NCBI GenBank assembly: GCA_025362395.1
Contig: JANYGK010000056.1
Location: 1 to 54,802, forward strand
Length of the DNA: 54,802 nucleotides
DNA from: Bacteroidota bacterium
GTDB taxonomy: Bacteria > Bacteroidota > Bacteroidia > B-17B0 > Aurantibacillaceae
Direction: 5' to 3'
This document shows, piece by piece, positions 1,331-54,802 of this stretch. The notes beneath the pieces were generated by a model. That model saw only the letters and a program-made list of their open reading frames with translations, did no database searches and was not told the origin of the DNA. The position numbers and the translations under genes were made by a program. How positions within the stretch are numbered: the first letter of the stretch is position 1; each line of letters starts with the position of its first letter.

Positions 1331-2755
1331 CTATAATGTTAACGGTTTACCTTGGTAATAATCCAGTATTTTTAGTCTGAATACATAATCATATTTAGCC
1401 TGCACTAAATTACTTTGCGAGGTTTGTAAACGCGTTTTAGCTGTATTAAAATCAAACGTACCAATGGTTCCAACATTAAATTTTTGTTCTGAATAATTAA
1501 AAGATTGCTGCGCTGCTTCAACAGCGGCCTTGCTGGAATTATATTTATTTAAGCTTGCTTTTGCGTTAACATAAGCCTGTGCAATGGTTTTATAAAGATT
1601 TTGCTCTAACAGGTCTTGCGAATATTTTGCATTTAACGCATTTATTTTAGCATTTTGAATCCCGGTGTAAGTTGACAGACCGTTATATAACGGTACAGAT
1701 AACGTAAAACCAATACTTTTATTAACGTTATCTTTAAACTGATCGGCAAAGGGTTTTTTAGCGGTAATAACATCGTAATGTGGTTGATACACAATTACGG
1801 AACCGTCTTTAGTTGCCGCCACCGGATCAAAACCGTTAAGGCTTGTACTGACAATATTTTTATCTAAACCCGATGTACCTGTCCCTAAAGATCCTGTAGC
1901 GCTAATGGTAGGGCTTACTTTTCCTTTTGCCACATTCAGGTTTCTCTCTGCTGCCAATAATCCGTAAGTAGCGCCTTTAATGGAATGCTGGTTTTTTAAT
2001 GCTTCTTCATAAATATTTTGTACAGATACGCTTGCCAGTTCATAGTTCAGCACTTCAATATCAGGCTTAATAATAGAAAAAGTTTGAAGACTGTCTAAAT
2101 CAATATTCAACAATTGCGTTAAATTTAATAAAGCGATTTGGTAATTATTATCGGCATTGGTTAAATTTACCTGGTCGTTTGCCAGCTGCGCTTTAATATC
2201 GTAAACCGAGCTTTTAGCAACGGTCCCCGCATCTGCCAGTTTTTCGGTGCGTTCAAGCTGAAGCTGCGAAATATTAAGCTGCGCTTTTGAAATACCTAAC
2301 AATTCGTCCGTAAAAATAACATTGATGTAAGCGGTAGCCACATTTAAGGACAAGTCATTTTTTTGCTGAAGGTAATTTTCGGAGCTTGAAAGATAATTAT
2401 ATTCATTTGCTTTTATGTTGTTGTATTGAGCCAGGCCTGACCATAAAACGACATTGCTGGATATAAAAAAGTTTTGTGATAATACCTGTGTATTGGCAAA
2501 TGTGTTGGTATACCTGTCAATAGTTCTACCAAAGTTATAGGTATGTTGAGCACCGGCATTCAATGTCGGTAAAATAGTTGCTTTACTTTGATTGGCGTTG
2601 TTTTTATTAATGAATGTATTAAGCTCCGACTGCTTTAATGAAATATTATTTTTTTGCGCGTAATCAATACAATGTTGCAGGTCCCAGGCGCGGCTTTGGG
2701 ATGAAAGCATGTGTGACAGGCCTAAAAAAATAAAACAGGTAATACTATTTTTCAT
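1331..2755 (-). CDS. TolC-family outer-membrane efflux channel
   Basis: The 474-residue protein starts with a signal peptide (about residues 1-23, ending SSQSRAWDL). Two homologous halves follow, each with long amphipathic helices rich in Gln, Asn and Ala and short strands (YNFGRTIDR; GFTLSVPLYNGLSTYTGI). This is the outer-membrane efflux protein pattern and the length fits the family (about 430-490). It would form the trimeric exit duct for the adaptor encoded 116 bases downstream in the same direction. A possible minus-strand promoter box TAATTTTG lies at 2884-2877. The gene is divergent from the AddB-like gene. Confidence 0.9.
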   Translation of the reverse strand: MKNSITCFIFLGLSHMLSSQSRAWDLQHCIDYAQKNNISLKQSELNTFINKNNANQSKATILPTLNAGAQHTYNFGRTIDRYTNTFANTQVLSQNFFISSNVVLWSGLAQYNNIKANEYNYLSSSENYLQQKNDLSLNVATAYINVIFTDELLGISKAQLNISQLQLERTEKLADAGTVAKSSVYDIKAQLANDQVNLTNADNNYQIALLNLTQLLNIDLDSLQTFSIIKPDIEVLNYELASVSVQNIYEEALKNQHSIKGATYGLLAAERNLNVAKGKVSPTISATGSLGTGTSGLDKNIVSTSLNGFDPVAATKDGSVIVYQPHYDVITAKKPFADQFKDNVNKSIGFTLSVPLYNGLSTYTGIQNAKINALNAKYSQDLLEQNLYKTIAQAYVNAKASLNKYNSSKAAVEAAQQSFNYSEQKFNVGTIGTFDFNTAKTRLQTSQSNLVQAKYDYVFRLKILDYYQGKPLTL

Positions 2756-2851
2756 ACGTCTTGTTTTTCTGTTGTAATGTAGAAATGCAATGGTAAATTT
2801 AACTAAAAAAAGCGCTCATCATAACGCTACTACATAAACGGAAAAATAGGG

Positions 2852-2865
2852 GTTACACCGGTAAC
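2852..2865. promoter_or_regulatory. Small inverted repeat GTTAC-N4-GTAAC in a divergent intergenic region
   Basis: GTTAC (2852-2856) and GTAAC (2861-2865) are perfect inverted arms in the 173-base region between the efflux operon (minus) and the AddB-like gene (plus). It could be an operator for the efflux genes. No regulator is encoded next to it, and a 5-base arm can occur by chance. Confidence 0.2.
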
Positions 2866-2928
2866 ATATCTATTTACAAAATTAAATAATTTATTAGCAT
2901 TAAGTCCCGGTTTTTAGTATTTTTCTAC

Positions 2929-39717: not shown

Positions 39718-40353
39718 ATGATAGAGTTATTTAAACACATTTTACATTTAGATTTTGATTGGTTGTTTTCAAATTACGGAACGGCTATTTACGTAGTTTT
39801 ATTTTTAGTTATTTTTATTGAAACCGGCTTGGTAGCTATGCCTTTTTTACCCGGAGATTCACTTTTATTTACCGCGGGCTTATTTGCAAGAACGGGGCAT
39901 TTAAACATGTCTTATTTACTGATGTTATTATTTGTAGCGGCTGTGTTGGGCGATAATTGTAATTATTGGATAGGCAGAACCATCGGTATTAAAATTTTTG
40001 ATTTAAAGCTTAAGGGCAGGCCGTTGGTAAAAAGAGAATACCTTGATAAAACACATGAATTTTTTGAAAGACACGGAACTAAAGCTATCATTATGGCGCG
40101 CTTTGTGCCTTTTATAAGAACTTTTGCGCCCTTTGCGGCAGGCATCGGTAAAATGACCTATCGTAAATTTTTAAGCTTTGATATTTTAGGCGGTGCTTTA
40201 TGGATAGGCAGTTTAACAACAGCCGGTTATTTGTTGGGCAATGTGGAATTTATCAGAAAACATATTGATTTGGTTTGCCTTGGTATTATTGGTATTTCGG
40301 TGCTTCCGGTTTTAATTACAATGGTTAGGAATAAGATGGAAACAAAAGCTTAA
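39718..40353 (+). CDS. DedA family (VTT domain) membrane protein
   Basis: The 211-residue protein has about five hydrophobic segments and the DedA signature: ETGLVAMPFLPGDSLLF, GDNCNYWIGRTIG, FFERHGTKAIIMARFVPFIRTFAPFAAGIGKM. The Arg residues in ARFVPFIRTFAP are those needed in E. coli DedA proteins. The family acts in lipid scrambling or undecaprenyl-phosphate recycling. It ends the plus-strand series and is followed at once by a strong terminator. Confidence 0.93.
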   Translation: MIELFKHILHLDFDWLFSNYGTAIYVVLFLVIFIETGLVAMPFLPGDSLLFTAGLFARTGHLNMSYLLMLLFVAAVLGDNCNYWIGRTIGIKIFDLKLKGRPLVKREYLDKTHEFFERHGTKAIIMARFVPFIRTFAPFAAGIGKMTYRKFLSFDILGGALWIGSLTTAGYLLGNVEFIRKHIDLVCLGIIGISVLPVLITMVRNKMETKA

Positions 40354-40367
40354 TTCATTTATAGTTA

Positions 40368-40410
40368 AACAAGAAAGGAGCGAAATATTTCGCTCCTTTC
40401 TTGTTTTTTA
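40368..40410. terminator. Bidirectional intrinsic terminator between DedA and a T9SS cargo gene
   Basis: AACAAGAAAGGAGCGAAA (40368-40385) pairs perfectly over 18 bases with 40388-40405 around a 2-base spacer. The plus strand continues TTTTTTA; the minus strand continues TTTAACT. The site lies 14 bases after the DedA stop and next to the stop of the convergent gene (40420). Confidence 0.92.
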
Positions 40411-40419
40411 AACGCTTTA

Positions 40420-43400
40420 TTAATTTTTAACCAGCTTAGAATAATGAATAGATTTTGCTGAATTTGTCATTCTTAAAATATAGAAACCACTTGGGAGATC
40501 TGCAATGTTTATTTCAGTATCAACCATTTCATATACCAAACTCTCTTTTTTTACAGTTTTACCTTGTACATCAATAAATTCAATATATGCACCATCTGCT
40601 GCTTCAATATTATAACGGATGTTTATTTTATCTTTTGCAGGATTAGGATATACTGTAAATAATTCATCTTTATAATTTACTGTAGTAATACCTGTAGTAT
40701 GCACCGGATCTATAAAACTTATTCCGTCATAAAAATAGTCTAAAGAATCTGCTTGAGGAGCAATATTCATTGGGATCATTCTGGCAACCGGAACCCATGT
40801 ATTTGTATTTATTCCGGTGAAAAAATAATTACATAATTGAGCACCTCTGTAATCATTTAAATTATTTTGAAAGGTTCCTACCTGCATTGCACATGAAGCT
40901 GTAGAAGCTTTTGTATTTGATAACAACATGGTTACATTAGAATTCGAGTTTTGAATTCCATAATTTGCTTCTAAGTTAATAACATGAGCCGCATCAGTAT
41001 TTACATCAAAAGTTCCGGAAGATGAATTATTACTTACAAACGAGTTGTGATAGATTTCACGCGGGGATGTAGACGCTACTGCAGAAAAACTATTGTTCTC
41101 AAATCCGTATTGTCTGTAATTGTAAACAAAATTATTATATATTTTTGGTAATGGTACAGATACACTAACATTTTGATTATAGCAATAGATACCATTTTTT
41201 GAGTTTAAAACACAGTTGCTTCTAATTCCTACACTCGTAGCATTTGTATATGAACTGAAAAATCCTGAACCCATTAGTGTATTATTATAAGCTATACCTG
41301 TAGCATCGCGATTTGAATTTAATTCCATATCTACTCTGTTACAACTAATATCTATTGCTTCGTATGACGCTGCATAAATTCCATAATACCAGGATTTATT
41401 GATCGTGTTTTCTGTTACAAATAAATATTTATTTGTCTGACCATAAATACCATTAAAGTACATGCCAACTTCGCAGCCATTTACTTCATTTTGAGAAACC
41501 GTAATATATTTTGAACCATTACTGGAAATACCAATATTGGCAGTTGTTATGTTGGGTAAGGTTGTTAAGCCTGAATTCATCACATTAGAGTTGTATATTT
41601 TGTTGCCTTTTATTAAAACATTAGTAGCATAATTAATTAATACCTGAACTTTATTTCCTGGGGCAGAAGCCATATTGAAAAGATGCGACCAGGTAAATGA
41701 ATTATTTTCTACTGAAAGGTTTACATCATAGTTTCCGTAGATCCCAATTGAAAAATCAGTAAATTTATTATCAGTTATTGTCAATAGAGAATCACTCGTT
41801 GTGTAAATAGCACAAATTCGGGCATTGTTAATTCCCGTATTAGTAGTAAAAATAAAATCATTTTGACTAATTAAATCAAAGTAACTATTAGCGCTTGAAT
41901 ATAAACCATAAAATTCAGGAGATGTACCGGGATTTAACTGACTGGATACTGTATTGAATGGCAGATTTTTGTTGTCAACCATGTAAGTATTTCCTGTCAT
42001 TGAACGTTTGAATGAAATATTATTTAATGCTACCCCTCTTTGACAATCAGCAAAAAGATTGTTAGTGATTCGTAAGTCTAACATCATTTTAGTTCCGTTT
42101 GAATATCCTTCTAAAGATGTTTTGGCATTTTTAAAAGTACATTCATTTACCATTCCTGATGGAGGGGTTCCATTTGTTGAGTAGAAGGAAACTCCTCTCC
42201 AAACTTTATTAATATCACATGGTCTGAATACTGAGTTATTTGCACGGATCACAGCGCCATTTTTAAAATCAATACCGGCGGACTGACCAAAAACAACATC
42301 TACATTTGTTATATCGAGTGTAGCGCCATTATCAACGGTTACAATTACATTATCAGCAATATATATTTTATCATTCCAAACAGTATTGGCTGTAATTGTT
42401 ATGTTGTTTAGAATTTTATAATAGATCGGGTCTACAGATGCGATACATCCACAGCCTGTTGTTACTATAGATTGTTGAGCAGAAGCTGAACAGCCGGTAG
42501 TAGGATCAGTTACAATAAGTGTGATTATATATGTTCCCGCCGCCGCATACGCATGTGTTGGATTTTGTAAAGTGGATATTTGTCCATCCCCAAAATTCCA
42601 TTGATATGTTGCGCTTGGCAGATTAGACGCACCTGCATATGTTACGCTATATGAACATGGAGTGCCTGTTATAGAAATCAATACATTACCTAAAAACGAA
42701 CTAACGATGTTAGGAAGACCTAATGTGCAATAAGCTCCTGAGCTTAATGTAACTGCATTTTCTGTAAACATAGGGCTTGTTAAGGGAAAGGTATTTGGAG
42801 TAGCGATTTTCGCTAAATGGTCTCTTCCGGGTAATGTGATATACATATTACCATCTTTCGCTGTTTGCATAGCTCCTTGTGAATATAAACCCCAATTCAC
42901 ATTTGTATTTGACCCTGAAGGAGTATAGTTTATTATGCTTACAGAAGTAGAAGCATTTATATTAGTTGCATTTATATCATATTCTGCAATAGCGTAAGCA
43001 TGAAAATCAGCAACGTATAAATATTGGCTATTTGGGGAAAACTCTATACCATATACATTTGTTGATGGTAATGACGTACTATTTATAGTTTTAGGATTAG
43101 AAATAACACCTGTGGAGTTATTAAAATTAAAAACTTCAACAATACCTAATCCTAAAGATGCGTAAGCTAATTTTGTTCCATCGGGAGACACTTTCATATA
43201 ACCTAAAGTGTTAACATCATTTGAACTACCTCCGTAAGTACATGTAGAGCCAACACTTTGGCGTTGGCCTGAAAATAGTGTTTCACTTATACCATCATTA
43301 GTACTGCCACACCCAATACTCCAAACAACAAATGTACCGTTAGAACCAGTTTCTTGTGATATATGTGCTATTAACCAATATCCAATACCACCTGCTTTAG

Positions 43401-43929
43401 GTATGGCTGTTATTTTTTCTGCAAAGTGAGTAGGTGAAGCTATAGCGTAAGGCATAGGTAAGTTTTTAGCAGTTGATAGAACTGATCCTGCACTTGTCGA
43501 CATGTCAACAATATTGTACCTGATTAAATTTGATCCCCCCCACGCATCAACAGTAAAAACAAAATATTGAGTAGTACTTCCTGGTTTTGGTACAATAATT
43601 CCTGATTGTGTAGAGGAAGTGTTTCCCAGCAAACCCGTGCCATTAGTCATGGAAGCGTTTGTATTATTATATACTGTCTGACCATCTGTATAAAACAGTA
43701 AATTGCCGCTTTGATCACAAATAGAGGCAACACCTTCATTAGCCGAACCCGCACCACTATAATAGCCGTTAAGTGCGCTTGTACCATTTGTTGGTGTTGT
43801 TGTGTTGAAGTCGAGTTTTTCTTGATGGCCAAAACACCACACATTTCCCTGATTTTGCGAAATTGCTCCTAGGGAACATAATCCAATCATTGTTAGAAGT
43901 AGGTTAATCCTAAAGGTTTGTTTTTTCAT
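40420..43929 (-). CDS. Large T9SS cargo protein: propeller-like domain, PKD, parallel beta-helix
   Basis: The 1169-residue protein has a signal peptide (1-25, ending GAISQ). Residues about 25-410 look like a beta-propeller of surface proteins (VWCFGHQEKLDF; MKVSPDGTKLAYAS; GIEFSPNSQYLYVADF). A PKD domain follows near 430-490 (WNFGDGQISTLQNPTHAY). Residues 500-1000 are Asn-rich repeats of a right-handed parallel beta-helix (VFRPCDINKVWRG; NNLFADCQRG; NNSFTWSHLF). The end is a type A sorting domain (FTVYPNPAKDKINIRY ... SGFYILRMTN ... YSKLVKN). It could be an adhesin or polysaccharide-binding or -cleaving protein; catalytic residues were not identified. It is divergent from the sensor kinase. 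Confidence 0.88.
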   Translation of the reverse strand: MKKQTFRINLLLTMIGLCSLGAISQNQGNVWCFGHQEKLDFNTTTPTNGTSALNGYYSGAGSANEGVASICDQSGNLLFYTDGQTVYNNTNASMTNGTGLLGNTSSTQSGIIVPKPGSTTQYFVFTVDAWGGSNLIRYNIVDMSTSAGSVLSTAKNLPMPYAIASPTHFAEKITAIPKAGGIGYWLIAHISQETGSNGTFVVWSIGCGSTNDGISETLFSGQRQSVGSTCTYGGSSNDVNTLGYMKVSPDGTKLAYASLGLGIVEVFNFNNSTGVISNPKTINSTSLPSTNVYGIEFSPNSQYLYVADFHAYAIAEYDINATNINASTSVSIINYTPSGSNTNVNWGLYSQGAMQTAKDGNMYITLPGRDHLAKIATPNTFPLTSPMFTENAVTLSSGAYCTLGLPNIVSSFLGNVLISITGTPCSYSVTYAGASNLPSATYQWNFGDGQISTLQNPTHAYAAAGTYIITLIVTDPTTGCSASAQQSIVTTGCGCIASVDPIYYKILNNITITANTVWNDKIYIADNVIVTVDNGATLDITNVDVVFGQSAGIDFKNGAVIRANNSVFRPCDINKVWRGVSFYSTNGTPPSGMVNECTFKNAKTSLEGYSNGTKMMLDLRITNNLFADCQRGVALNNISFKRSMTGNTYMVDNKNLPFNTVSSQLNPGTSPEFYGLYSSANSYFDLISQNDFIFTTNTGINNARICAIYTTSDSLLTITDNKFTDFSIGIYGNYDVNLSVENNSFTWSHLFNMASAPGNKVQVLINYATNVLIKGNKIYNSNVMNSGLTTLPNITTANIGISSNGSKYITVSQNEVNGCEVGMYFNGIYGQTNKYLFVTENTINKSWYYGIYAASYEAIDISCNRVDMELNSNRDATGIAYNNTLMGSGFFSSYTNATSVGIRSNCVLNSKNGIYCYNQNVSVSVPLPKIYNNFVYNYRQYGFENNSFSAVASTSPREIYHNSFVSNNSSSGTFDVNTDAAHVINLEANYGIQNSNSNVTMLLSNTKASTASCAMQVGTFQNNLNDYRGAQLCNYFFTGINTNTWVPVARMIPMNIAPQADSLDYFYDGISFIDPVHTTGITTVNYKDELFTVYPNPAKDKINIRYNIEAADGAYIEFIDVQGKTVKKESLVYEMVDTEINIADLPSGFYILRMTNSAKSIHYSKLVKN

Positions 43930-44080
43930 AATTGATTTTTTTGATTTAATTTTTAAATTATTAATATCAGTAAATATTACATTTTTCGAGACGGTAATGT
44001 TATTAGTAATTTATTTTAGGATACTACCGTAAAAATGATTTATAGCACACAATGTTTTTTTTCTTGAATAGTATTTAAGT

Positions 44081-44088
44081 TACATTTG
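44081..44088 (+). promoter_or_regulatory. -7 promoter box of the sensor-kinase operon
   Basis: TACATTTG matches TAnnTTTG exactly and ends 5 bases before the ATG at 44094, so the transcript would be nearly leaderless. The nearest TTG (44064-44066) is only 14 bases upstream of the box, shorter than usual. Inverted arms ACGGTA (43991-43996) and TACCGT (44025-44030) lie farther upstream and could be an operator. Confidence 0.45.
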
Positions 44089-44093
44089 TATCT

Positions 44094-47015
44094 ATGAGTT
44101 GCAGAAAACTGATATATTTTTTTCTTTTTTCTTTTTTTTGGTTTTTAGGAAAAAGTCAAAAATTGGAATTTGATAATTATACCAGTAAACATGGATTAAT
44201 ATCCGATGATGTATATAAGATATTTCAGGATCATAAAGGCTATATCTGGCTTTTTACTGATTATGGAGCAATGAAATATAATGGGAAGAAATTCGAACAA
44301 ACACTCAAAAACATTCCCTTTAAAGAATCATTCATTTATTCGTTTTATGAAAATGATAAAGGGCAATTGTGGGTTGCAAATTCAAACGCTAAAATCTATG
44401 AAGTAAGAAACGATAGTGCATTTTTAATAAAAGGAACGGAAATAATTTCAGAGCAACTTAAAAAAAGTATTGCAGAGATTACGCAATTAGTTGTTGATGA
44501 CAGTTTAAATATATATGCTGTAACCAAACTATTTACCTATAAATTTCCAAAAAAAAATAATTACCTGAGAGGTGAAAAACTTAACTATCAATTAGACAAG
44601 GATACAATAGCGTATAATGTTATTTGTGTTAATAATGATCTTCTGCCTGAATATTTAGATGCTAAGAACAAACATTTAGGGGCTTATTTTTTGAACCACA
44701 ATACGATTAAAGTCAAGATAAAATGCTGTGATAATAAAGAAGAAATATTTGATATACCCAGCTCAGTTTTAACCGGTCCTAAGTTTTTCAAAAAATACGG
44801 AAGCAATATTTATATATGTTTTTATAATAAAATAGTAAAAATATGTTCCGATAAGTCCATCAAAGAAATTCCATTAAATTCGATCATCACAAGTTTTGTA
44901 AAGGATAAAAACGATCACTTGTGGGTGGGTTGTGTTAATAATGGATTATTTGAAATTGATCAGCATGACTCGATAGTGCATCATTACCTGAACGATAAAA
45001 CAGTTAATGAAGTTTTAATTGATTCTCAAAATGGACTTTGGTTATCAACCGAAGGCTTTGGTCTGTACCATTGTAAAGGGTCGAATACATATTATTATGA
45101 TAAGAATGAGCCACTTGGACTCCCTATCAGCTTAATGAAAAAAATAGATGATAAGATCTTTATTTTTAATAATCAGGGCGATCTGTTTATAGTTGAAAAA
45201 AACGGTTTAACGCAAGTTAAAAAAAGTAATGATATAGGTAGTGAACCATTAGATATAATTAAATACCATTCCCTGTATTTAATATCTTATAGGCATAAAA
45301 CAGAATATTTTGATCTTAAAAAAGGTGTAGTAAAAGTTATTGTTGCTACACAAAAAACTTTTTATGTTCCTTATCGCTACTCATTTATTGATAAGGATAC
45401 TTTGTTATTGGTTAGAAGAAATGGTTTGAGGAAAGTATATAATGATAGTTTGCTGCAAAAAATTGACTTTAATTTTAAAGTGTTTGATTGCATAGTAAGG
45501 GATGGAAAAATTATAATTACAACAGATGAAGGCCTTTATGAATATTATAACAATAAACTATCCCGGCCTGATCATTTTAAGATCACTCAGAAATGTGTTA
45601 TTTCAAAAATTGTAGAAGGCAAATTTGGTGATCTATGGTTTTGTTCAAAGGGCTATGGTTTATTTAAACTTACACCTAATAATGAATTGAAGCACTATAC
45701 GATTAATAATGGCTTACCAAGTAATATTATAAACGACATCAGTTTTAATAATGATCATAGCATTTTATTATCTACAAATATTGGTTTATTTCATAGCTGT
45801 AAATACAAAAAATGGATTCAGATCTATCAGGAACAAGTTGAGTCGGCTATACAGGATAAAAATGATGTATATTTTAGTACAAAAAACGGGTTAATAGTAT
45901 TTAAAGATATTAAACCCAATGAAGAACATCCAATATATTTTAATTTATCATCGTTATTTGTAAATGCAAAACTCTCAACTTCTAAACAGATAGAGCATCT
46001 AAAGCATGATCAGAATAATATAGAGTTTAATTTTGATGTTATTTCTTTTTCCTCCAATGTGTCTGATATTATTTATCAATTAAGCGGGTCAGCAAATAAT
46101 ATCGGTATTACCAAAAATCAGCAAATAATATTTCAGAACCTTGCGCCGGGTACTTATACTTTAACTGCGTCTCTCGTTGCAAATTATAATAAATCCAGTT
46201 CTATTGTTATCCCATTTGTTATAACTCCGGCATTTTGGCAAACTGTATTATTTAAGATTTTGGTTTTTATTATTATGTTTCTTTTGTGTTTTCTTATTTT
46301 CCGTATCACATTCAGATATTATAAAAATAAAGAGAATAGGGAAAATAAAATAGAAAAATTAATTATTGAATATAAATTAATTGCATTAAAGGCTCAGATC
46401 AATCCTCATTTTATGTCAAATTGCCTTACGGCAATCCAGCAACTGATAATTAGCAATAAAATAGACGAAGCCAATCAATATTTGGCTAAATTTAGTTTTT
46501 TGGTTAGGCAAGTACTGAATTTTTCCTCAAAAATGCTGGTGTCGTTAGCTGAAGAATTACAGATCACAAAATTAAATATTGAACTCGAACAATTACGGTT
46601 TGAAAATAAATTTGAATTCATTAGCGAAATAGATAAGGACATCGATCTTAAGAAAATTGTTGTACCACCTTTGATTTTTCAACCAATAATTGAAAACGCT
46701 ATATGGCATGGTTTATTACCTTTAAGAAATAAAAGAAAAGGTGTCTTGAGGATGAAAATCTATATTTTTAATCAATCCTTAATTATTGTTATTGAGGATA
46801 ATGGAGTTGGTAGGAGTACAAATACGGATGTGATCAGTAATCTAAAAGATTCAAAGGGAATGAATCTTATTAATCAAAGGATTCAAAGTTTAAATAATTT
46901 CTATAAAACTGATAATGGGAAATTATTATTTGAAGATTTATTTGATGATTCTGACAATCCTTTGGGTTCACGTATTACAATTACATTACCAATATTTAAT
47001 TCTAAAAAAGTATGA
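44094..47015 (+). CDS. Propeller-sensor histidine kinase of the LytS/YehU type
   Basis: The 973-residue protein has a signal peptide (about 1-21), then Reg_prop-like blades (GYIWLFTDYGAMKYNGK; GQLWVANSNAKIYEV; HLWVGCVNNGLFEID; GLWLSTEGFGLYHCK; GDLWFCSKGYGLFKL), a Y_Y_Y-like beta domain (about 640-710), one membrane helix (about 716-740, VFIIMFLLCFLIF), and a His_kinase domain whose phospho-acceptor is H772 (AQINPHFMSN). The ATP-binding part shows ENAIWHG and EDNGVG. The large periplasmic propeller probably reads an external ligand such as a carbohydrate. The stop overlaps the regulator start by 4 bases (ATGA), so the two form a pair. Confidence 0.92.
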   Translation: MSCRKLIYFFLFSFFWFLGKSQKLEFDNYTSKHGLISDDVYKIFQDHKGYIWLFTDYGAMKYNGKKFEQTLKNIPFKESFIYSFYENDKGQLWVANSNAKIYEVRNDSAFLIKGTEIISEQLKKSIAEITQLVVDDSLNIYAVTKLFTYKFPKKNNYLRGEKLNYQLDKDTIAYNVICVNNDLLPEYLDAKNKHLGAYFLNHNTIKVKIKCCDNKEEIFDIPSSVLTGPKFFKKYGSNIYICFYNKIVKICSDKSIKEIPLNSIITSFVKDKNDHLWVGCVNNGLFEIDQHDSIVHHYLNDKTVNEVLIDSQNGLWLSTEGFGLYHCKGSNTYYYDKNEPLGLPISLMKKIDDKIFIFNNQGDLFIVEKNGLTQVKKSNDIGSEPLDIIKYHSLYLISYRHKTEYFDLKKGVVKVIVATQKTFYVPYRYSFIDKDTLLLVRRNGLRKVYNDSLLQKIDFNFKVFDCIVRDGKIIITTDEGLYEYYNNKLSRPDHFKITQKCVISKIVEGKFGDLWFCSKGYGLFKLTPNNELKHYTINNGLPSNIINDISFNNDHSILLSTNIGLFHSCKYKKWIQIYQEQVESAIQDKNDVYFSTKNGLIVFKDIKPNEEHPIYFNLSSLFVNAKLSTSKQIEHLKHDQNNIEFNFDVISFSSNVSDIIYQLSGSANNIGITKNQQIIFQNLAPGTYTLTASLVANYNKSSSIVIPFVITPAFWQTVLFKILVFIIMFLLCFLIFRITFRYYKNKENRENKIEKLIIEYKLIALKAQINPHFMSNCLTAIQQLIISNKIDEANQYLAKFSFLVRQVLNFSSKMLVSLAEELQITKLNIELEQLRFENKFEFISEIDKDIDLKKIVVPPLIFQPIIENAIWHGLLPLRNKRKGVLRMKIYIFNQSLIIVIEDNGVGRSTNTDVISNLKDSKGMNLINQRIQSLNNFYKTDNGKLLFEDLFDDSDNPLGSRITITLPIFNSKKV

Positions 47016-47779
47016 TGAAAATAAGAACTTTGATAATTGATGACGAGTATTTAAACAGAGACCTAATATCTAAATTAATTCAAAGAACAAGTGCTAATTT
47101 TGAGGTTATTGGGGAGGCTGAAAACATTGATGATGCTTTTGATCTGATTATTGAACGTAATCCTGATTTGATCTTTTTGGATATAAAGATGCCGGGCGGT
47201 AATGGATTTGAATTATTAAAACGCTTTGAAAACCCTGCTTTTGAAGTCGTATTTATAACCGGATTTGATGAGTACGCTTTGCAGGCATTTGAGTTCAACG
47301 CCTTAGATTATGTTTTGAAACCGGTTGATACAATTAAGCTTAAAGTCACACTTAACAAAGTGTATAATCGTATTACCTCAAAACTATCAATCATTAACAA
47401 TTTTAAGGAGATACTCGATATTTATAACACAAACAATTATCTTATTTCAAAAATCCCAATTCACTATAAAGATAAGGTAGAGTTAATTGAAATTAAAGAG
47501 ATCTTATCAATCGAGGCCGACGCCGGATATACCATTTTTAAAATTTCAAATGATAGTGAGTATACATCAGCAAAACAGTTTTCATGTTTTGAGTTTATAA
47601 TAGAAAAGTTTCCAAATTTCATAAAGATTAATAAGGGAACTTATATAAATTTAAATTTTTTAAAAAATTATTCAAAAGGCGAGAGCTGCTTGATCCAATT
47701 GAAGAATGAACATTATTACGAGGTTTCAAGAAGAAAAAAAACAGAGATATTATCATTTTTAGAAAAAGAGTATACTTAA
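47012..47779 (+). CDS. LytTR family response regulator
   Basis: The 255-residue protein has a receiver domain with the acidic pocket D10/D11, the phosphorylation site D57 (LIFLDIKMPG) and the conserved Lys in DYVLKPV, followed by a LytTR DNA-binding domain (about 150-250: VELIEIKEILSIEADAGYT ... FIKINKGTYINLNFLKNY ... EVSRRKK). LytTR proteins bind direct repeats in promoters. Two overlapping ATG codons (47012, 47015) are possible starts. The likely targets are the surface-protein genes on both sides (40420-43929 and 47852-51481); this is inference from position. Confidence 0.95.
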   Translation: MMKIRTLIIDDEYLNRDLISKLIQRTSANFEVIGEAENIDDAFDLIIERNPDLIFLDIKMPGGNGFELLKRFENPAFEVVFITGFDEYALQAFEFNALDYVLKPVDTIKLKVTLNKVYNRITSKLSIINNFKEILDIYNTNNYLISKIPIHYKDKVELIEIKEILSIEADAGYTIFKISNDSEYTSAKQFSCFEFIIEKFPNFIKINKGTYINLNFLKNYSKGESCLIQLKNEHYYEVSRRKKTEILSFLEKEYT

Positions 47780-47851
47780 TTTTTCGCTTGATGATTATCA
47801 TTATATTTAATAAAAATTAATTTTCTGTTTGATCCGATAATGTGTAATTCA

Positions 47852-50800
47852 ATGAAATGTATTAAATATCTTACTTTATTATTTATTCTGTTTTCAAGAA
47901 CTAGCATTTCTCAAACTAATTTAGTTTCTAATCCTGGTTTTGAAAATCATACTTTATGTCCTAACTTTATGTTACAATGGGATAGATGCATAGGTTGGTA
48001 TAATTGTAATGGTAATATTGGAAATGGTTTGTGGGGCACTCCGGATTATTATCACACATGTTCTACCCCTTCATATCCTTATAATCCTTTACCTCCTAAT
48101 ACAGGAATGGGTTATTGTAACCCACATACCGGTAATGCTATGATGGGTCTTGTGTGTTATAATCTATCCTATGCTAACTATAGAGAATATATTTCTTCTG
48201 CATTAACCTGCCCAATGACAGCGGGAAATACATATACTGTATCTTTTTGGATCACAGCATCTTCCGCACCTACAGTACAATATAATTCAAGCCACTTTGG
48301 CGTTTATTTATCTAATTCAATGCCTTCGCAATCTACCTATTTTGTTATAAATGTTACACCTCAATATGAAATACCAACCATAATTAGTAACACGATCTGG
48401 CAGCAATATACTTTTACAATTTCTCCAACTTCCAGCCTTAATTACATCACTTTAGGTTGCTTTAAAAATGAGACTTTGATATCAACCTCTTTAATGACTC
48501 CCGGGGCTACACAACCTTATTCAAATTATTTTATTGATGATATTGAAGTCTTGAACCCTTCAAGTGGGTCAGTAGGTATTAGTTCGGTAAGCAATTTCAG
48601 TGTCTGTGCAGGCCAATCTACTATAATTAATCCTTCGGGTTCAAATAATTATTCCATTACACCCTCAAACACAACAGGTACATCTTTTACAGTTAACCCA
48701 ACGATAACAACTACCTATACAATTTCAGATGCTAACACTGCATCTTGTATACAGTCAAGTACAATAGTTACCATCTATGTTAATCCATCCCCTGCTTTGA
48801 CGGTAAACTCTACAACCCTATGTGCTGGAGAAACGGCAACGCTTACAGCAAATGCAATTTCAGGTTACACTTGGTCACCTTCGAGTTTAAACACACAAAG
48901 CATTTTAGTACAACCTTTAACCACAACAATATATACTGTTTCAACTACAAATGGTATTTGTAATGCCTCTTCAAATGCTACAGTAACCGTAATTCCTTTA
49001 CCGGTTATTTCGGTTGCCAACAGTACTGTTTGCGCAGGCCAACAAGATACATTAACAGCAATAGGAGGAACAACTTATACATGGCAACCTTCAAGTACAA
49101 ACTCTTCTACTATTGCTATACAACCTTTAACAAATACTATATATACGGTTACAGGTTCAAACGGATTTTGTTCATCAACATCGAATAGTTCCATAACTGT
49201 TTTAAGTACTCCGGCGTTATCAGTAAATTCTGCAACAGTTTGTGCTGGAAAAACAGCTACTATCACAGCAACTTCCACTTCAGGCTATACCTGGTCACCA
49301 TCAGGTATAAATACATCTACTATTTCCGTACAGCCTTTAGCTACATCGCTATATAACATATCAAGCTCAAATGGTATATGTACGTCCGTTGCTACTTCTA
49401 CCGTAACTGTTTTGCCGGTGCCACTTATCTCTGTGAATAACGCCGGCATTTGCACAGGTCAAACAGCAACGTTAACAGCGTCGGGAGCAAATACCTATAC
49501 CTGGTTACCTTCAGGATTAAATACTCCAACTATTTCTGCCCAACCTTTAACTAATACAATTTATACAATTACAGGCTCAAACGGCATATGCGCTTCATCG
49601 ACTAATGCTACTGTAACAGTTACTTCTTTTCCTGTTATATCAACTACAAATGCCACTATTTGTGCAGGCCAAACAGTTACATTAACAGCAAACGGTGCTA
49701 CAGGCTATACATGGCAACCTACAGCGCTAAATACGAATAGTATTATTGTGCAGCCTTTAGTTAATATTATATATACAGTTACAGGTTCGAACGGAACTTG
49801 CTCATCTATAGCGAATGCTTCTATTACGGTATTGTCGTCACCTACATTATCTGTTAATTCGCCAAGTATTTGTTCAGCACAAACTGCTACTCTTATTGCC
49901 AATTCTACTTCAGGCTATACATGGTCGCCTTCCGGCATTAATACATCAAGTATTTCTGTACAACCTTTAATTAATACGGTATATACTGTTTCCAGCTCAA
50001 ACGGAATTTGTACATCTGTTGCTCATGCTTCTGTAACAGTTCTCCCTTTTCCTATACTTGCGGTTAACAGTATGAGCATTTGCGCCGGCCAAACAGGGAC
50101 TTTGGTTGCTGCCGGAGCAACAACCTACACTTGGTTACCTACAGGGGCAAATACCCAAAGCATAGTTGTTGCTCCTATTGCTAATACTATATATACAATT
50201 ACCGGCTCAAACGGTGTATGTGCTTCTACTTTTAATGCTTCAATTGTTATTTTATCTTTGCCTGTAATTTCTGTAAATTCTTTTACAATTTGTGCGGGAG
50301 AAACAGTTACGTTAACGGCAAGTGGTGCATCTACCTATACTTGGTTTCCCGTTACTCAATTAAATAATTCCACAGGCAATGCAGCAACTGCGAATCCTAT
50401 AACAAACACTATTTACACAGTAACAGGTACATCGATTGAGGGTTGTAATTCGTTTGCAATATCGACAGTAAGTGTTATAACCAATGGTGGTTTAACTGCT
50501 ACAACAAGTGCAACAACTATTTGTGTCGGTAGCAGTGCTACCTTAACTGCAGGTGGGGTTAGTACGGGTTCTTACACTTGGTCAGCACTACCTATAAGTC
50601 CTATCAATACTATAAATAGCAATCCTGCAATAGTTACCCCTTCATTAACAACCTTATATACTTTGTCGGCTTTTGTCGGGGTGATGCCAAATAGGTGTAC
50701 GTTTACTAAAACAGTTACGGTTGCCGTTGCTCCTAATACTAATGTATTAACGGGTTACGTCGATCCTATATGTTTTGGGAGCTATACTACTCTTACTGCC

Positions 50801-51481
50801 AAAGGTGGAAATAAATATAGCTGGTCTTTAACAGTTGGCTTGAATCATCCCGGCGATTCTGTTACTACAGCAGCGCCTTTGACAACTACAGTTTATACTG
50901 TTACAGTATCTAAAAATGGAATATGCCCGAAAACAGGTACTGTTCAAGTAATAGTTAATCCCATTCCATATGTTTATGCAGGTATTGATACTACTATAAA
51001 TATTGATGAGCACATTGTTTTAACCGGAAACGGAAATGTTGAAGTGGGATTTATACTGTCCAACAATAACTCTTTAACTTGTAACTTCTGTTCGCAGATA
51101 ACAATTAATCCACAAGAAAATACTTGTTATATTTTGAGGGGTACTAATGAATACAATTGTGTTAATACAGACACAATTTGTGTAACTGTTACAAAAGACT
51201 GGGATGTTTTTATTCCAAATGCCTTTACTCCAAATGGAGATAGTGATAACGATATTTTTATTCCCGTAGGTTATGGTTTGAGTGAAATTCACCTTACTAT
51301 TTTTGATAGATGGGGAGCTGTAATTTTCAAAAGTAACGTGGATAAAATTGGTTGGGACGGTTCTTTTAAAGGACAAATTTGTAAACAGGACGTGTATGTT
51401 TACAAAGCGGAAATATTAACAATGGCAGGTTATACAGTAATGAGAACCGGGCATGTTACCTTACTACCTAAAATTAAATAG
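47852..51481 (+). CDS. Giant repeat surface protein with CHU_C-type T9SS C-terminus
   Basis: From the ATG at 47852 the protein has 1209 residues (an upstream ATG at 47840 adds four). A signal peptide (ending SISQ) precedes a domain of about 220 residues beginning NLVSNPGFENHTLCPNF and ending YFIDDIEVLNP, common at the N-terminus of Bacteroidota surface proteins. Then come eight Ig-like repeats of about 70 residues, each with a CAGQTATLTA-like start and YTWSPSG and IYTVTGSNG motifs, and three more divergent ones. The last 95 residues are the gliding-motility-associated CHU_C domain (IPNAFTPNGDSDNDIF ... IFDRWG ... DGSFKGQ ... VYKAEI), a type B T9SS signal. It is probably an adhesin or matrix protein and follows the response regulator by 72 bases. 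Confidence 0.9.
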   Translation: MKCIKYLTLLFILFSRTSISQTNLVSNPGFENHTLCPNFMLQWDRCIGWYNCNGNIGNGLWGTPDYYHTCSTPSYPYNPLPPNTGMGYCNPHTGNAMMGLVCYNLSYANYREYISSALTCPMTAGNTYTVSFWITASSAPTVQYNSSHFGVYLSNSMPSQSTYFVINVTPQYEIPTIISNTIWQQYTFTISPTSSLNYITLGCFKNETLISTSLMTPGATQPYSNYFIDDIEVLNPSSGSVGISSVSNFSVCAGQSTIINPSGSNNYSITPSNTTGTSFTVNPTITTTYTISDANTASCIQSSTIVTIYVNPSPALTVNSTTLCAGETATLTANAISGYTWSPSSLNTQSILVQPLTTTIYTVSTTNGICNASSNATVTVIPLPVISVANSTVCAGQQDTLTAIGGTTYTWQPSSTNSSTIAIQPLTNTIYTVTGSNGFCSSTSNSSITVLSTPALSVNSATVCAGKTATITATSTSGYTWSPSGINTSTISVQPLATSLYNISSSNGICTSVATSTVTVLPVPLISVNNAGICTGQTATLTASGANTYTWLPSGLNTPTISAQPLTNTIYTITGSNGICASSTNATVTVTSFPVISTTNATICAGQTVTLTANGATGYTWQPTALNTNSIIVQPLVNIIYTVTGSNGTCSSIANASITVLSSPTLSVNSPSICSAQTATLIANSTSGYTWSPSGINTSSISVQPLINTVYTVSSSNGICTSVAHASVTVLPFPILAVNSMSICAGQTGTLVAAGATTYTWLPTGANTQSIVVAPIANTIYTITGSNGVCASTFNASIVILSLPVISVNSFTICAGETVTLTASGASTYTWFPVTQLNNSTGNAATANPITNTIYTVTGTSIEGCNSFAISTVSVITNGGLTATTSATTICVGSSATLTAGGVSTGSYTWSALPISPINTINSNPAIVTPSLTTLYTLSAFVGVMPNRCTFTKTVTVAVAPNTNVLTGYVDPICFGSYTTLTAKGGNKYSWSLTVGLNHPGDSVTTAAPLTTTVYTVTVSKNGICPKTGTVQVIVNPIPYVYAGIDTTINIDEHIVLTGNGNVEVGFILSNNNSLTCNFCSQITINPQENTCYILRGTNEYNCVNTDTICVTVTKDWDVFIPNAFTPNGDSDNDIFIPVGYGLSEIHLTIFDRWGAVIFKSNVDKIGWDGSFKGQICKQDVYVYKAEILTMAGYTVMRTGHVTLLPKIK
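48803..50272 (+). repeat. Seven in-frame 210-base tandem repeats with a 630-base super-period
   Basis: Seven consecutive units of exactly 70 codons start at 48803, 49013, 49223, 49433, 49643, 49853 and 50063; a longer eighth begins at 50273. Unit 2 is most like unit 5 (ITVLSTPALS / ITVLSSPTLS), 3 like 6 (SGYTWSPSGINTS), and 4 like 7 (YTWLP, NTIYTITGSNG). This fits duplication of a three-unit block of 630 bases. Confidence 0.85.
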
Positions 51482-51575
51482 CGTAACTATTAATAATAAT
51501 ATGCTATAGGAACCTGCACGTTATCCTACTAAGTTATTGCTTATCAAACCACTTTTTTATTTATTCTGTGATGCG

Positions 51576-51583
51576 TATATTTG
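51576..51583 (+). promoter_or_regulatory. -7 promoter box of the methyltransferase/glycosyltransferase unit
   Basis: TATATTTG matches TAnnTTTG exactly and ends 4 bases before the ATG at 51588, again implying an almost leaderless transcript. No TTG lies at the usual -33 distance. Confidence 0.45.
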
Positions 51584-51587
51584 AGTC

Positions 51588-52283
51588 ATGGCTACAAAAG
51601 AAGAAGTTAAGAAATATTACGATACGTTTAAAGATCACCAAAAAAAATTAGGTATTAATATAAGGCATCGCACTATTTTAAAAAATTTAAAACATGCAGG
51701 TTTAAAGCCTAACTCTAATGTATTGGAAATTGGTTGTGGAATCGGTACAGTGAGCCACTTAATTTTGAAATACATAACAGGCGGTAGTTTTGTGGGATTG
51801 GACATTAGCTCTGAAAGCATTGAAATGGCTAAAAAATTAAATGGGTTTCATAAAAAGGCCGAGTTTTTAGTAAATGATATGAGTAGTTTTACACATAAAA
51901 CTAAATTTGATTTTATTGTCTTTCCTGATGTGTTAGAGCATATTCCTGTTGAGCAACATGCACATATTTTTGAAACTATTTCAATATTAACTACCCCAAA
52001 TGCGGTTGTTATTATTAACATACCTGAACCCTATACATTAGATTGGCATCGAAGAAATACTCCTGATGCCTTACAAATTATTGATCAATCACTATCAATA
52101 AAAGATCTGTGTAATAATTGTTATCCTTTTGGATTTTATCTTTATTCTATGATTCCTTATGGCCTTCAATATGACAATGAAGAATATTTAAGTATAGTTT
52201 TAAAAAAACATTTTGTAAGAAAAGATGTTTTATTTAAATCGAAAGTTAAACTTGGTATAGAAAATTATAAGAGTAAATTTTAA
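51588..52283 (+). CDS. Class I SAM-dependent methyltransferase
   Basis: The 231-residue protein has motif I VLEIGCGIG (45-53), the acidic D72 (VGLDIS) that binds the ribose of S-adenosylmethionine, and the motif FDFIVFPDVLEHIP typical of UbiE/Coq5-like and sugar O- or N-methyltransferases. The substrate cannot be told from sequence; the neighbours (glycosyltransferase, acetyltransferase, deacetylase) suggest a surface sugar. The next gene starts 4 bases after the stop. The gene is AT-rich like the rest of this end. Confidence 0.85.
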   Translation: MATKEEVKKYYDTFKDHQKKLGINIRHRTILKNLKHAGLKPNSNVLEIGCGIGTVSHLILKYITGGSFVGLDISSESIEMAKKLNGFHKKAEFLVNDMSSFTHKTKFDFIVFPDVLEHIPVEQHAHIFETISILTTPNAVVIINIPEPYTLDWHRRNTPDALQIIDQSLSIKDLCNNCYPFGFYLYSMIPYGLQYDNEEYLSIVLKKHFVRKDVLFKSKVKLGIENYKSKF

Positions 52284-52287
52284 TTAA

Positions 52288-53340
52288 GTGAAAAATTTTA
52301 AAATACTCTATTGGGATCAGGGCAAATCAAGTTTTGTAAAAAAAGACCTTGAAATTCTTAGAACCGAGTTTGACGTAATTGATTATACCTTTAAATCTAA
52401 AAAAAATATATTTATTTTATTAGAATTAATAAAACAAGCTTTTCTTTCATTATACTATGTGTTTTCATGTAAAGTTGTTATATGTCAGTTTTCAGGCTAT
52501 CATAGTTTAATACCTCTAACTATTTTTAAAATTTTCGGCAAAAAAAAAATAATTATTGCCGGTGGTACAGATTGTGTGTCTTTTCCTTCAATTAGATACG
52601 GTAATTTTCAAAAAAAATATTTGAAGTGGTTTACCGAAAAATCTTTTCAACTTGTTGATATTATTTCACCTGTGGATGAAACCTTAATCAAATATACTTA
52701 TTCATATCAGGAAAATGACTTTAAGGAACAGGGATATAGGGCACATGTAAAAACTATCAAAGCTATAGATAAAGTAATTTATAATGGATATGATTACGAA
52801 AAGTTTAAAATAATCAATTCAATTAGAAAAGAAAAAACTTTTTTGACAGTGGCTGCAAACCTAAACACGGACTTTGGTCAAAAGTTGAAAGGAATTGATT
52901 TGATATTAGAAATAGCAAAAGAGTTTCAAGATTGTAGCTTTACAATTATTGGAGGAGAAAAATTGCAAATTGATAATGATATAAATAACGTAATATTATT
53001 AGGTAATGTAGATAATTCTAAATTAGTTGAAATTTATAATCAACATAAATATTATATGCAATTATCTATTTCTGAAGGTTTTCCTAATGCTTTATGTGAA
53101 GCTATGCTATGTGGTTGTTTACCTATTGTTAGCGATGTTGGAGCAATGAGAAAAATCGTTGGTGAAGTGGGAATTATTTTAGAACGGAAAAATTTTATTT
53201 TATTAAAAGAAAAAATAACTTTGGCTTTAAAGAAACCGACTGATAAGTTATTAATGAATAAAAGTAGGAACCTTATAAAAGATAGATTTACATTAGAAAA
53301 ACGAAAGCATGAATTAATTGATTTATTAAATTTTATTTAA
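52288..53340 (+). CDS. Glycosyltransferase family 4 (GT-B fold)
   Basis: The 350-residue protein starts with GTG at 52288, four bases after the methyltransferase stop, so the two are coupled. It has the GT4 C-terminal signature E263-G-F-P-N-A-L-C-E271 (the EX7E motif), then CGCLPIVSDVGAM, a retaining GT-B arrangement, and in the N-terminal half IIAGGTDC. No signal peptide is seen. It would add a sugar to a polysaccharide, lipid or protein acceptor. It converges on the GNAT gene; only 18 bases lie between. Confidence 0.87.
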   Translation: MKNFKILYWDQGKSSFVKKDLEILRTEFDVIDYTFKSKKNIFILLELIKQAFLSLYYVFSCKVVICQFSGYHSLIPLTIFKIFGKKKIIIAGGTDCVSFPSIRYGNFQKKYLKWFTEKSFQLVDIISPVDETLIKYTYSYQENDFKEQGYRAHVKTIKAIDKVIYNGYDYEKFKIINSIRKEKTFLTVAANLNTDFGQKLKGIDLILEIAKEFQDCSFTIIGGEKLQIDNDINNVILLGNVDNSKLVEIYNQHKYYMQLSISEGFPNALCEAMLCGCLPIVSDVGAMRKIVGEVGIILERKNFILLKEKITLALKKPTDKLLMNKSRNLIKDRFTLEKRKHELIDLLNFI

Positions 53341-53358
53341 TTTTATAACGACAGGTCT

Positions 53359-54294
53359 TTACCAAGTATCAAAATCAGAACCTGAAAACCTAAATACTTT
53401 ATTTTTATGTTCCTCTGATAAATGCCTGTAACCAATTGGAATATTTGAATGAAGATTGATTTTTTTCTTTAGTAATTGTTCATTTGGTGTACCTTCCTGA
53501 TAGTAAAAAATAATATTGGATAGACCTGTTTTTTTTGCTAATTTTTTCAGGATATCAAATGCTATATCAAAACTTTCAACGGAAGCGTTCTCAAAATCAC
53601 CGACCCATAAAGCGCCATCGACTTTAATCCAGAAATTAATATTATTTAATTTTATAATAAATTTATTTTTCGAGCTTTTGTATTCAAAATATTCTAGGTT
53701 ATGAATTACACCACAAACATTTTTTTCAATAACTGAGTTATTAAAAAAAGAATCCTGGCTTTTATATTTTGAAAAAATTAGATTTAAATATGAAATATAT
53801 AAGAACTTTAGAATAGGTATTTTTTTAACAATCTTATCTATTGGCAAGGTTTTAATGTTTTGCTTATAAATATTTATGTTTTCAAAATGTTCCCATTTTA
53901 ATTTTATTTTTCTCAAATTATAAATAGTTGTATTTGGGAAACCATATATATAACTTATGCCTTGTGTCTTCAGGAAATCATAAGCTGTTTCCGCAACATT
54001 AATAAATAGTCCTTGTCCACCATGGTTTTTATGTGTCATTGAATCACAGGATTGACCGATGTCAAATACTTCATTGTTGTAAGTTACGCGCTGAGTAATT
54101 ATTCCATAAAAAGAAGCGGGCTCATTTGATTCGGATATCGCAATAAATGATGCTTGTATTTTCTGGTACTGATGAAAAAATTTACTCTCTACTATTTCTA
54201 AATCAGGATTTGCTGAAAAAGCGCTTTTATATATAGATGTATATGATTTAATATCTGCAATCATGAATTTATGAATTTTGTATCTTTTTTTCAT
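53359..54294 (-). CDS. GNAT family N-acetyltransferase
   Basis: The 311-residue protein has a GNAT core in its N-terminal half: YKSAFSANPD, then the acetyl-CoA loop HKNHGGQGLF (about 89-98) and SYIYGFPN. The second half (about 130-311) is a Lys/Asn-rich beta-containing extension. Similar proteins occur in polysaccharide clusters, where they acetylate amino sugars, but the substrate here is unknown. It lies 19 bases after the deacetylase stop on the same strand, so the two probably act together. Confidence 0.75.
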   Translation of the reverse strand: MKKRYKIHKFMIADIKSYTSIYKSAFSANPDLEIVESKFFHQYQKIQASFIAISESNEPASFYGIITQRVTYNNEVFDIGQSCDSMTHKNHGGQGLFINVAETAYDFLKTQGISYIYGFPNTTIYNLRKIKLKWEHFENINIYKQNIKTLPIDKIVKKIPILKFLYISYLNLIFSKYKSQDSFFNNSVIEKNVCGVIHNLEYFEYKSSKNKFIIKLNNINFWIKVDGALWVGDFENASVESFDIAFDILKKLAKKTGLSNIIFYYQEGTPNEQLLKKKINLHSNIPIGYRHLSEEHKNKVFRFSGSDFDTW

Positions 54295-54313
54295 ATATCC
54301 GTCTAATCTAAAT

Positions 54314-54802
54314 TTAAAACCCCGATTTATTAAATTGTTTATTTATTAAAATTTTATTCGTAGCTAAGCTTGTTGAGTTACTTATACTGTATCTACTTCT
54401 TATTCTGTTATCTGTAAAGTCCCTATTGCATAATAAAGAAACAGCCAGTTGGTATTTGTAACCTATTTGTTGTGCAGCGTCTTTTGTTTTTTCTGAATAA
54501 TCGCCGTCAGGGTAACCAATGCTTATAACTGGCTTTTGAATAATTTTTTCCAGAATTTCTTTAGATTTCTTTAATTCTTCATACATTAACTCAAAATCTA
54601 TCTTTGATAAATTATAGTGCCTGTGAGTGTGTGATCCAATTTCAATAAGACTTGATTGAGACATTTCTTTGATCTGATCCTTTGAACAAAAACGAATTAA
54701 CTCAGGATCAATACCATTGAGTATTTTTTTTATATTGTATTTATAAATAAATTGTTTGAATGCAGCTTGTCTTTCCTCACCCATTAGTTTTACATAATCA
54801 TA
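54314..54802 (-). CDS. Polysaccharide deacetylase family protein, 5' end cut by window edge
   Basis: The frame is open to the right edge (YDYVKL precedes the first in-frame Met), so 162 codons of the C-terminal part are visible. It carries the NodB-fold metal motif IGSHTHRHYNLS and the YPDGDYSEKTKDAA segment, typical of deacetylases acting on N-acetylated sugars. The catalytic Asp motif would lie upstream of the window. With the GNAT acetyltransferase next to it, it suggests modification of amino sugars in a surface polymer. Confidence 0.82.
   Translation of the reverse strand, partial: YDYVKLMGEERQAAFKQFIYKYNIKKILNGIDPELIRFCSKDQIKEMSQSSLIEIGSHTHRHYNLSKIDFELMYEELKKSKEILEKIIQKPVISIGYPDGDYSEKTKDAAQQIGYKYQLAVSLLCNRDFTDNRIRSRYSISNSTSLATNKILINKQFNKSGF

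Follow-up and report, generated by a model that had tools for sequence, protein, structure and literature searches.

The window analysed here is a stretch of 54 802 nucleotides, one whole contig (C90) of a 4.08-Mb genome (G000) that is 99% complete and whose Bacteroidota affiliation was judged from gene families and named relatives; below, G, C and L numbers denote genomes, contigs and loci. In its right-hand part, genes for a sensor histidine kinase and a LytTR response regulator lie between genes for two large type IX surface proteins. The subject of this report is a putative regulatory element of 24 bp between the kinase gene and the divergent surface-protein gene (44026–44049, minus strand; in target orientation TGTGCTATAAATCATTTTTACGGT; E 3.9e-5). 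The pair appears to be a member of a Bacteroidota clade of Reg_prop kinase/LytTR regulator pairs that would recognize this one element. In the window the regulator very probably controls the surface genes beside it, because the gap between the kinase gene and the divergent cargo gene holds a conserved element with promoter geometry and because such pairs recur beside type IX cargo genes.

The initial annotation had placed four genes here, and all four open reading frames (ORFs) were confirmed, with the coordinates, strands and domains claimed for them. The leftmost encodes a 1169-aa type IX cargo protein (40420–43929, minus strand; PKD, Beta_helix and Por_Secre_tail domains), the predicted direct target of the element. 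A gap of 164 bases separates it from the divergent kinase gene (44094–47015, plus strand; 973 aa), whose product has a hydrophobic start (signal-peptide-like, by eye), a Reg_prop propeller and a His_kinase domain (PF06580; 63.9 bits, Pfam cut-off 25.2); its Y_Y_Y domain scores under the Pfam cut-off. The regulator gene (47012–47779, plus strand; 255 aa) overlaps the kinase gene by four bases (47012–47015), as had also been noted initially. Its product joins a receiver domain (Response_reg, 79.4 bits, cut-off 30.2) to a LytTR domain (34.0 bits, cut-off 22.6), so that the pair has the domains of a LytTR two-component system. Sixty bp after the regulator comes the gene for a 1213-aa Ig-repeat protein (47840–51481, plus strand; Ig_7, CHU_C, type B sorting), which is without an element of its own. 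Both surface proteins have hydrophobic N-termini, judged by eye, and C-terminal sorting domains (Por_Secre_tail 52.3 bits, CHU_C 45.1 bits; cut-offs 27).

The phospho-acceptor site of the receiver (Asp10, Asp11, Asp57 and Lys103, with Asp57 the acceptor) is invariant in all 46 regulators compared, including that of the window. The best NCBIfam match of the regulator is BtsR, at 125 bits below the cut-off of 246, and by the NCBIfam model NF052313 it is not PorX (38.3 bits, cut-off 300). A search of solved structures with the regulator alignment gave 277 matches, and the 60 of them listed all fall on the receiver half; the same search with the LytTR half alone gave none. A known RNA element as the identity of the feature was ruled out, as an Rfam scan of 40000–54802 gave no match at gathering scores.

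Full-length relatives of the kinase were collected with a kinase alignment from named public contigs and whole genomes; the whole-genome kinase searches, like the composite-promoter search below, scored part of the candidates in each genome. In a maximum-likelihood tree of 48 kinases the group holding the window's kinase (T1, 17 members) splits off at a branch with 100/100 support. Within the other 31 there is a subclade T2a (10 kinases, support 100/98), and the rest are termed T2b (21).

Expectation maximization on the 17 upstream regions of T1 kinases finds a common 24-bp motif with a log-odds of 293.8 (150 restarts), compared with 97.6–111.6 in eight shuffled sets (40 restarts); these shuffled controls, together with those given below for the -7 spacing and the PWM matches, reject chance or an AT-rich artefact as its source. 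The window's copy is the element described above. All kinase loci were scored with one position weight matrix (PWM), which contains no T2 locus of the tree, and with one threshold. At a score of at least 8 the element is found at 13 of 17 T1, 9 of 10 T2a and 2 of 21 T2b kinases, and the T2a–T2b difference (p = 2.5e-5) is out of sample. All 24 of these kinase-side elements share one orientation.

The window's kinase gene has a -7 box of its own, TACATTTG (44081–44088, plus strand), 5 nt before its ATG, which predicts a near-leaderless mRNA. In 10 of the 17 T1 loci a box of this kind, matching at least five of six consensus positions, lies 4–7 nt ahead of the kinase start codon (seven exact); among comparison ORFs, 214 of 1968 have one 3–8 nt ahead of the start (46 exact). 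The kinase mRNAs of T1 are accordingly predicted, from these boxes, to be leaderless or near-leaderless.

Copies of the element also occur away from the kinase. A degenerate pattern search in 15 genomes gave 130 matches, against 63 for a reversed control. Sites were then kept by their likeness to the core, with 40 stretches picked by eye while their genes were still unseen, and models R1 and R2 were trained on such core-like sites; since the pattern fixes several bases, alignment A3 shows these as invariant partly by construction. Read in target orientation the element is TGTGCTAAAAA-N4-TTTAACGGTAG, with two conserved blocks ∼20 bp apart, ACGGTAG first and TGTGC second. A sequence model applied to 20 genomes of the genus (E <1e-3) finds 15 copies in G016, eight each in G007 and G001, six each in G009 and G017, five in the genome of the window, two each in G006 and G012 and a single copy each in G003, G014 and G019; the remaining nine genomes have none. 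These numbers of strong elements are hand counts. With a 26-position PWM at a score of at least 20 there are 46 matches in 558 kb and none in one order-1 shuffle, most of the matched sites having trained the PWM.

What ties these copies to promoters is their spacing. A -7 box TAnnTTTG (at least five of six positions) follows 23 or 24 bp beyond the element at 47 of 64 sites, where 500 shuffles give a mean of 2.4 and a maximum of 8; the 64 include two probable non-sites, one in L074 and one at window position 41191, where the pattern match falls within the beta-helix gene. TAnnTTTG is the flavobacterial sigma-A -7 box, according to the available text of PMC9723704. A box at this distance means that the element ends at the expected -33 region, an activator's place. 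The genes that the elements point at are enriched in type IX cargo: a type IX tail is present in 24 of 55 uncut targets and in 33 of 419 other ORFs of motif-selected loci (p = 1.2e-10), the background loci having been chosen for element content and the targets drawn from all collected loci. A signal-peptide-like start is seen in 63 of 79 targets and in 153 of 408 background ORFs.

In the window's own genome the best copy lies on contig C16 before a 1149-aa type IX gene, whose start, re-read by eye, comes after its element. Within the window, a scan at a score of at least 15 finds one further match, at position 8785 and within a gene, and none before the 1213-aa gene (47780–47851) or the glycan genes. 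The element at 44026–44049 is separated by 96 bases from the start codon of the 1169-aa gene, and its candidate -7 box, TAACATTA (43995–44002, minus strand), stands 23 bp from the element and is weak, with four of six consensus positions. Three other strong elements of this genome (C16:60212, C50:1665 and C100:35859) are without a -7 box at 23 or 24 bp and without a clear target; they may be relict sites or act toward the other side.

Two side observations concern the element and its targets. Its middle 4 bp (positions 12–15 in alignments A3 and A4) recur as CCCG, CTGC, CTCC, TCCT/TCAT, TCCC and CGTC, flavours that differ both between and within genomes and possibly reflect paralogue specificity. 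Some targets are small receiver-like proteins of 122–157 aa (L195, L280, L316 and L319, in G001, G007 and G016), a hint of a signalling cascade; their receiver identity was assigned by eye, except for the protein common to L195 and L227, which was confirmed with Pfam.

A change in the LytTR domain of the regulator accompanies the element. The LytTR signature FhRhHRS, a frequent motif and not a strict family criterion, is represented in AgrA by FFRCHNS, of which R198, N201 and S202 contact DNA, a role for H200 being inferred, as far as the consulted part of PMC4227749 goes. In the window's regulator the signature is replaced by FIKINKG, placed on the protein by eye, with Asn207 for the signature His. 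Asn or Ser stands at this position in 16 of 16 T1 and seven of nine T2a regulators, i.e. in 23 of 25 from the element-bearing clades, and in two of 21 T2b regulators, where His is found in 18.

Elements also lie beside paralogous regulator genes. Nine other regulators score above 248 bits, and for six of them (one each in G000, G006, G007, G009, G012 and G017) an element lies 2–12 bp behind the regulator's own gene. These elements point at the next gene, with a perfect -7 box in five of six, G000 being the exception. Its product ends in a type IX tail in G006 (667 aa) and G009 (1271 aa); the gene is absent in G000 and incomplete in the stretches of the other genomes. No element was found behind the regulators of G016 and G018 or the second one of G012 within the stretch examined. 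Within the genus, genomes with this regulator group are also richer in elements (seven of eight, against four of 12, p = 0.025; a rank test gives p = 0.003), by hand counts in which one genome per side is counted only via truncated hits. In a sample of 395 genomes from the class, the composite promoter is present in 11 (E ≤0.001), including all four with a kinase match (E ≤1e-150); three of these four had fed the model and the fourth, G035, had not, its kinase (L042) belonging to T2b, and the kinase scan scored two candidates per genome.

Type IX genes occur beside the pair in excess of chance. At 12 of 18 clade loci, and at 15 of 34 control pairs, a directly adjoining gene encodes a type IX tail, compared with 26 of 240 (clade) and 40 of 415 (control) of all ORFs of at least 120 aa in those loci. 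Once the tree was available, L153 was counted with the clade and no longer with the controls as regards adjoining genes; the ORF background was counted before this reassignment. Tails were called with two home-made hidden Markov models, grown iteratively from the two tails of the window, and a Pfam check of eight proteins agreed with the calls (Por_Secre_tail in four of four positives, no type IX domain in four of four negatives). ORFs came from a simple longest-ORF script, which makes some starts too long, and the neighbours of the kinase orthologues L070, L071 and L145, near contig ends, were partly seen. At three loci (L064:8266–9825, L068:8159–9835 and L145:1431–3101) a protein of 519–558 aa diverges from the kinase and takes the place of type IX cargo; Pfam scans of two of these proteins gave no match above the cut-off. 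Locus L045 has, at 2094–3359 (minus strand), a gene for a 421-aa protein that combines a Reg_prop propeller with a type IX tail and has no kinase part, divergent over an element from another cargo gene; we read it as a secreted propeller, and a 58% relative adjoins the pair in L079.

The four genes sit at the edge of a variable surface and glycan cassette. The conserved left border is a gene for a VTT/DedA-type membrane protein (39718–40353, plus strand; PF09335), which served to locate 19 stretches in 18 further genomes of this genus, several of them short (that of G003 included). The VTT protein is 75–90% identical in 15 of the 18 and ∼50% in three; the genes to its right differ from genome to genome. 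The kinase pair is found there in G006 and G017. In the stretch read, a cargo gene without the pair is found in G009, G016, G003 and G012, and glycan genes alone in G004, G005, G007 and G011; the remaining genomes show unrelated genes or the contig end. The same chromosomal site in G009 has an element between two cargo genes and no kinase. In the window, past the 1213-aa gene, a glycan-synthesis cassette begins (51588–54802; methyltransferase, glycosyltransferase, GNAT and polysaccharide deacetylase genes), which the contig end interrupts. In the seven genomes where it can be followed (G004, G005, G006, G007, G009, G011 and G016) the glycan cassette ends with a candidate Wzx-like flippase, labelled by eye and without a Pfam match, and a conserved glycosyltransferase. 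Over the whole cassette (window 39718–54802; L045–L063) content is very different between species, though flanking proteins are ∼80–95% identical.

Base composition follows the genes. The block had been described as AT-rich, as if acquired. This holds for the kinase (28.1% guanine plus cytosine, GC) and the regulator (29.2%) and not for the surface genes (34.0% and 37.0%), so that low GC is not block-wide; bases 1–40419 have 36.9% and those from 51482 to the end 27.3%, which places low GC in the kinase, the regulator and the genes past the block. Acquisition fits in so far as the site is a variable cassette. In G006, six syntenic proteins adjoining the site are 88–92% identical to those of the window, while the kinase is 42%, the regulator 51% and the homologue of the 1213-aa protein 54% identical, and the beta-helix gene is not present at that locus. 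The G006 kinase has 42% GC, 7–9 points under its flank (49–51%); low GC therefore goes with the gene, whose base composition tracked each host, and a single recent import was rejected as its cause.

Our preferred reading, which we consider probable, is that regulators of this clade bind the element and activate a surface-protein regulon. Once phosphorylated, the regulator would bind the element directly next to the -33 region and, as an activator, switch on the gene that the element points at. The direct target in the window would be the 1169-aa beta-helix surface protein, with more targets elsewhere in the genome. The kinase, the regulator and probably the 1213-aa protein would be encoded in one operon, the 1213-aa gene being one that may be co-transcribed with the regulator, and the operon promoter would lie across the element from that of the cargo gene. 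Autoregulation of the kinase through the element is possible but less sure, as the distance to the -7 box varies on the kinase side (19–56 bp).

Several observations weigh against this reading. The bare pattern exceeds its reversed control only about two-fold, with no excess in G017, G026, G057 and G087. Four T1 loci (L079, L143, L145 and L153) score below 8. The match between element and regulator is imperfect in both directions: the T2b kinases L148 and L167 have the element, yet their regulators retain His, and the T2b regulators L158 and L178 have Asn or Ser, yet their kinases are without the element. The assembly of G001, fragmented and 92% complete, contains eight strong elements but no regulator of this group. 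The regulator is likewise missing from G003 and G014, with one element each, and from G019, with one truncated hit; in G018 there is a related regulator, but a search at E ≤0.1 gave no element. The TGTGC block is no obvious copy of ACGGTAG, so the element does not look like a textbook LytTR direct repeat. In the window's genome, one of five strong elements (the C16 copy before the 1149-aa gene) has a -7 box of at least five of six positions, the window's own has four and the three others one to three; with only four, the 1169-aa gene may have a weak or degraded promoter.

The genomes with elements and no clade regulator found (G001, G003 and G014) are what another regulator would lead one to expect: the element would then be a true activator site of type IX cargo promoters, and the LytTR pair, whose kinase gene itself adjoins an element, just another target. 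We think this unlikely, as the element follows the kinase phylogeny and the DNA-contact signature of the regulator, lies directly behind a paralogous regulator gene in six genomes, and has a ACCGTTAAA block similar to known LytTR half-sites, for example ACCGCTTAC of the YehT probe (PMC4847170, in its accessible part). It is quite unlikely, in our estimate, that the pair mainly serves the adjoining glycan cassette and determines the combination of polysaccharide and coat protein produced. In favour of this are the position of the pair at the edge of a variable cassette and the orthologous pairs that abut glycan genes in the window, in G006, in G017 and at both G024 loci. Against it, no element was found before the window's glycan genes, the stretches read around the orthologues L067–L070, L073 and L075 gave no match to these genes, and the site has glycan genes but no pair in G004, G005, G007, G009, G011 and G016.

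The initial annotation had proposed a closed circuit; in the strict form of this idea the regulator would act on the two adjoining surface genes and no others, and the four genes would be inherited together as a unit. Adjacency, the element next to one of the two genes and the recurrence of type IX neighbours speak for it. The motif expected in both upstream regions is present in 43930–44093 and missing from 47780–47851. Elements in trans, one of them before the 1149-aa type IX gene, and the G009 element without a kinase largely refute the strict circuit. Nor was the four-gene order found elsewhere: none of 22 stretches (some loci counted twice) has full-length homologues of all four genes, the nearest being L076, which matches each surface protein in part, one over its N-terminal third and the other over its sorting tail. 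We rate the closed circuit as highly improbable; the comparison suggests that the four-gene block is one instance of a wider regulon and that a strict circuit is not conserved. That the genes adjoin by chance, in a genome with many type IX genes, is scarcely credible: type IX tails are indeed found on 8–11% of ORFs in these loci, but the arrangement recurs in 12 of 18 of them, and the element is conserved with a fixed -7 spacing.

The regulon proposed here touches several known systems. In Bacteroides, hybrid two-component sensors of polysaccharide loci combine Reg_prop/Y_Y_Y sensors with an AraC output domain in a single polypeptide; the sensor class is the same here, whereas the kinase and the LytTR regulator are separate. 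The LytTR systems with LytS-like kinases (BtsS-BtsR/YehU-YehT and YpdA-YpdB, with the AgrA domain as a further relative) resemble the window's pair in the PF06580 His_kinase, the receiver-LytTR regulator and a site upstream of the promoter. Differences from LytS-like LytTR systems are the propeller sensor, the Asn or Ser in place of the signature His, the bipartite element without a clear repeat and the type IX targets. LytTR sites are described as two repeats of 9–11 nt, 11–13 nt apart, and the ACCG-type half-site of the element resembles the YehT probe (PMC4847170, available text). The LytTR regulatory systems HdrRM and BrsRM of Streptococcus mutans share a site just upstream of the -35 region and a proposed positive feedback; they differ in pairing the regulator with a membrane inhibitor and in their 9-bp direct repeats, mostly 12 bp apart (PMC6193735, in the part seen). 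The window's pair does not belong among them, its partner being a His_kinase and its regulator having a receiver. PorX/PorY-SigP likewise ties two-component control to type IX secretion in Bacteroidota, with secretion-machine genes and an extracytoplasmic function sigma factor, in contrast to the LytTR regulator and the cargo promoters with sigma-A -7 boxes seen here (e.g. PMC4800418, available portion). The remFG-sprCDBF operon of Flavobacterium psychrophilum is another case of promoter control of type IX cargo (the adhesin SprB); it differs in having two alternative sigma-factor motifs (SM4 and SM5), and the word LytTR does not occur in the accessible text (PMC9723704).

A literature search by title and abstract, with most subscription journals outside its scope, gave no description of LytTR control of type IX cargo; papers naming both LytTR and type IX secretion have LytTR, in the text accessible, only in gene-family lists, counts and one transcript note. 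To our knowledge, little has been established about how Bacteroidota choose which type IX surface proteins to display. A broader proposal, on which we are evenly divided, is that the LytTR lineage with Asn or Ser for His reads a promoter code of its own, TGTGCTAAAAA-N4-TTTAACGGTAG plus TAnnTTTG 23 or 24 bp after GGT, and governs a dedicated type IX surface-coat regulon. Regulators and target promoters would ride in exchangeable surface and glycan cassettes, new cargo genes would arrive pre-wired to the resident regulator, and the middle 4 bp may allow paralogous regulators of the same cell to be told apart. In the literature surveyed, as far as its text was available, two-component control (PorXY-SigP) acts on the secretion machine, unlike the control of cargo promoters suggested here. 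The exchange of the signature His for Asn or Ser would offer a case of protein–DNA covariation for studying how LytTR domains choose their DNA. With a defined element and a fixed promoter spacing, cargo regulons would become predictable from sequence alone, and orphan Reg_prop/LytTR pairs would gain testable targets.

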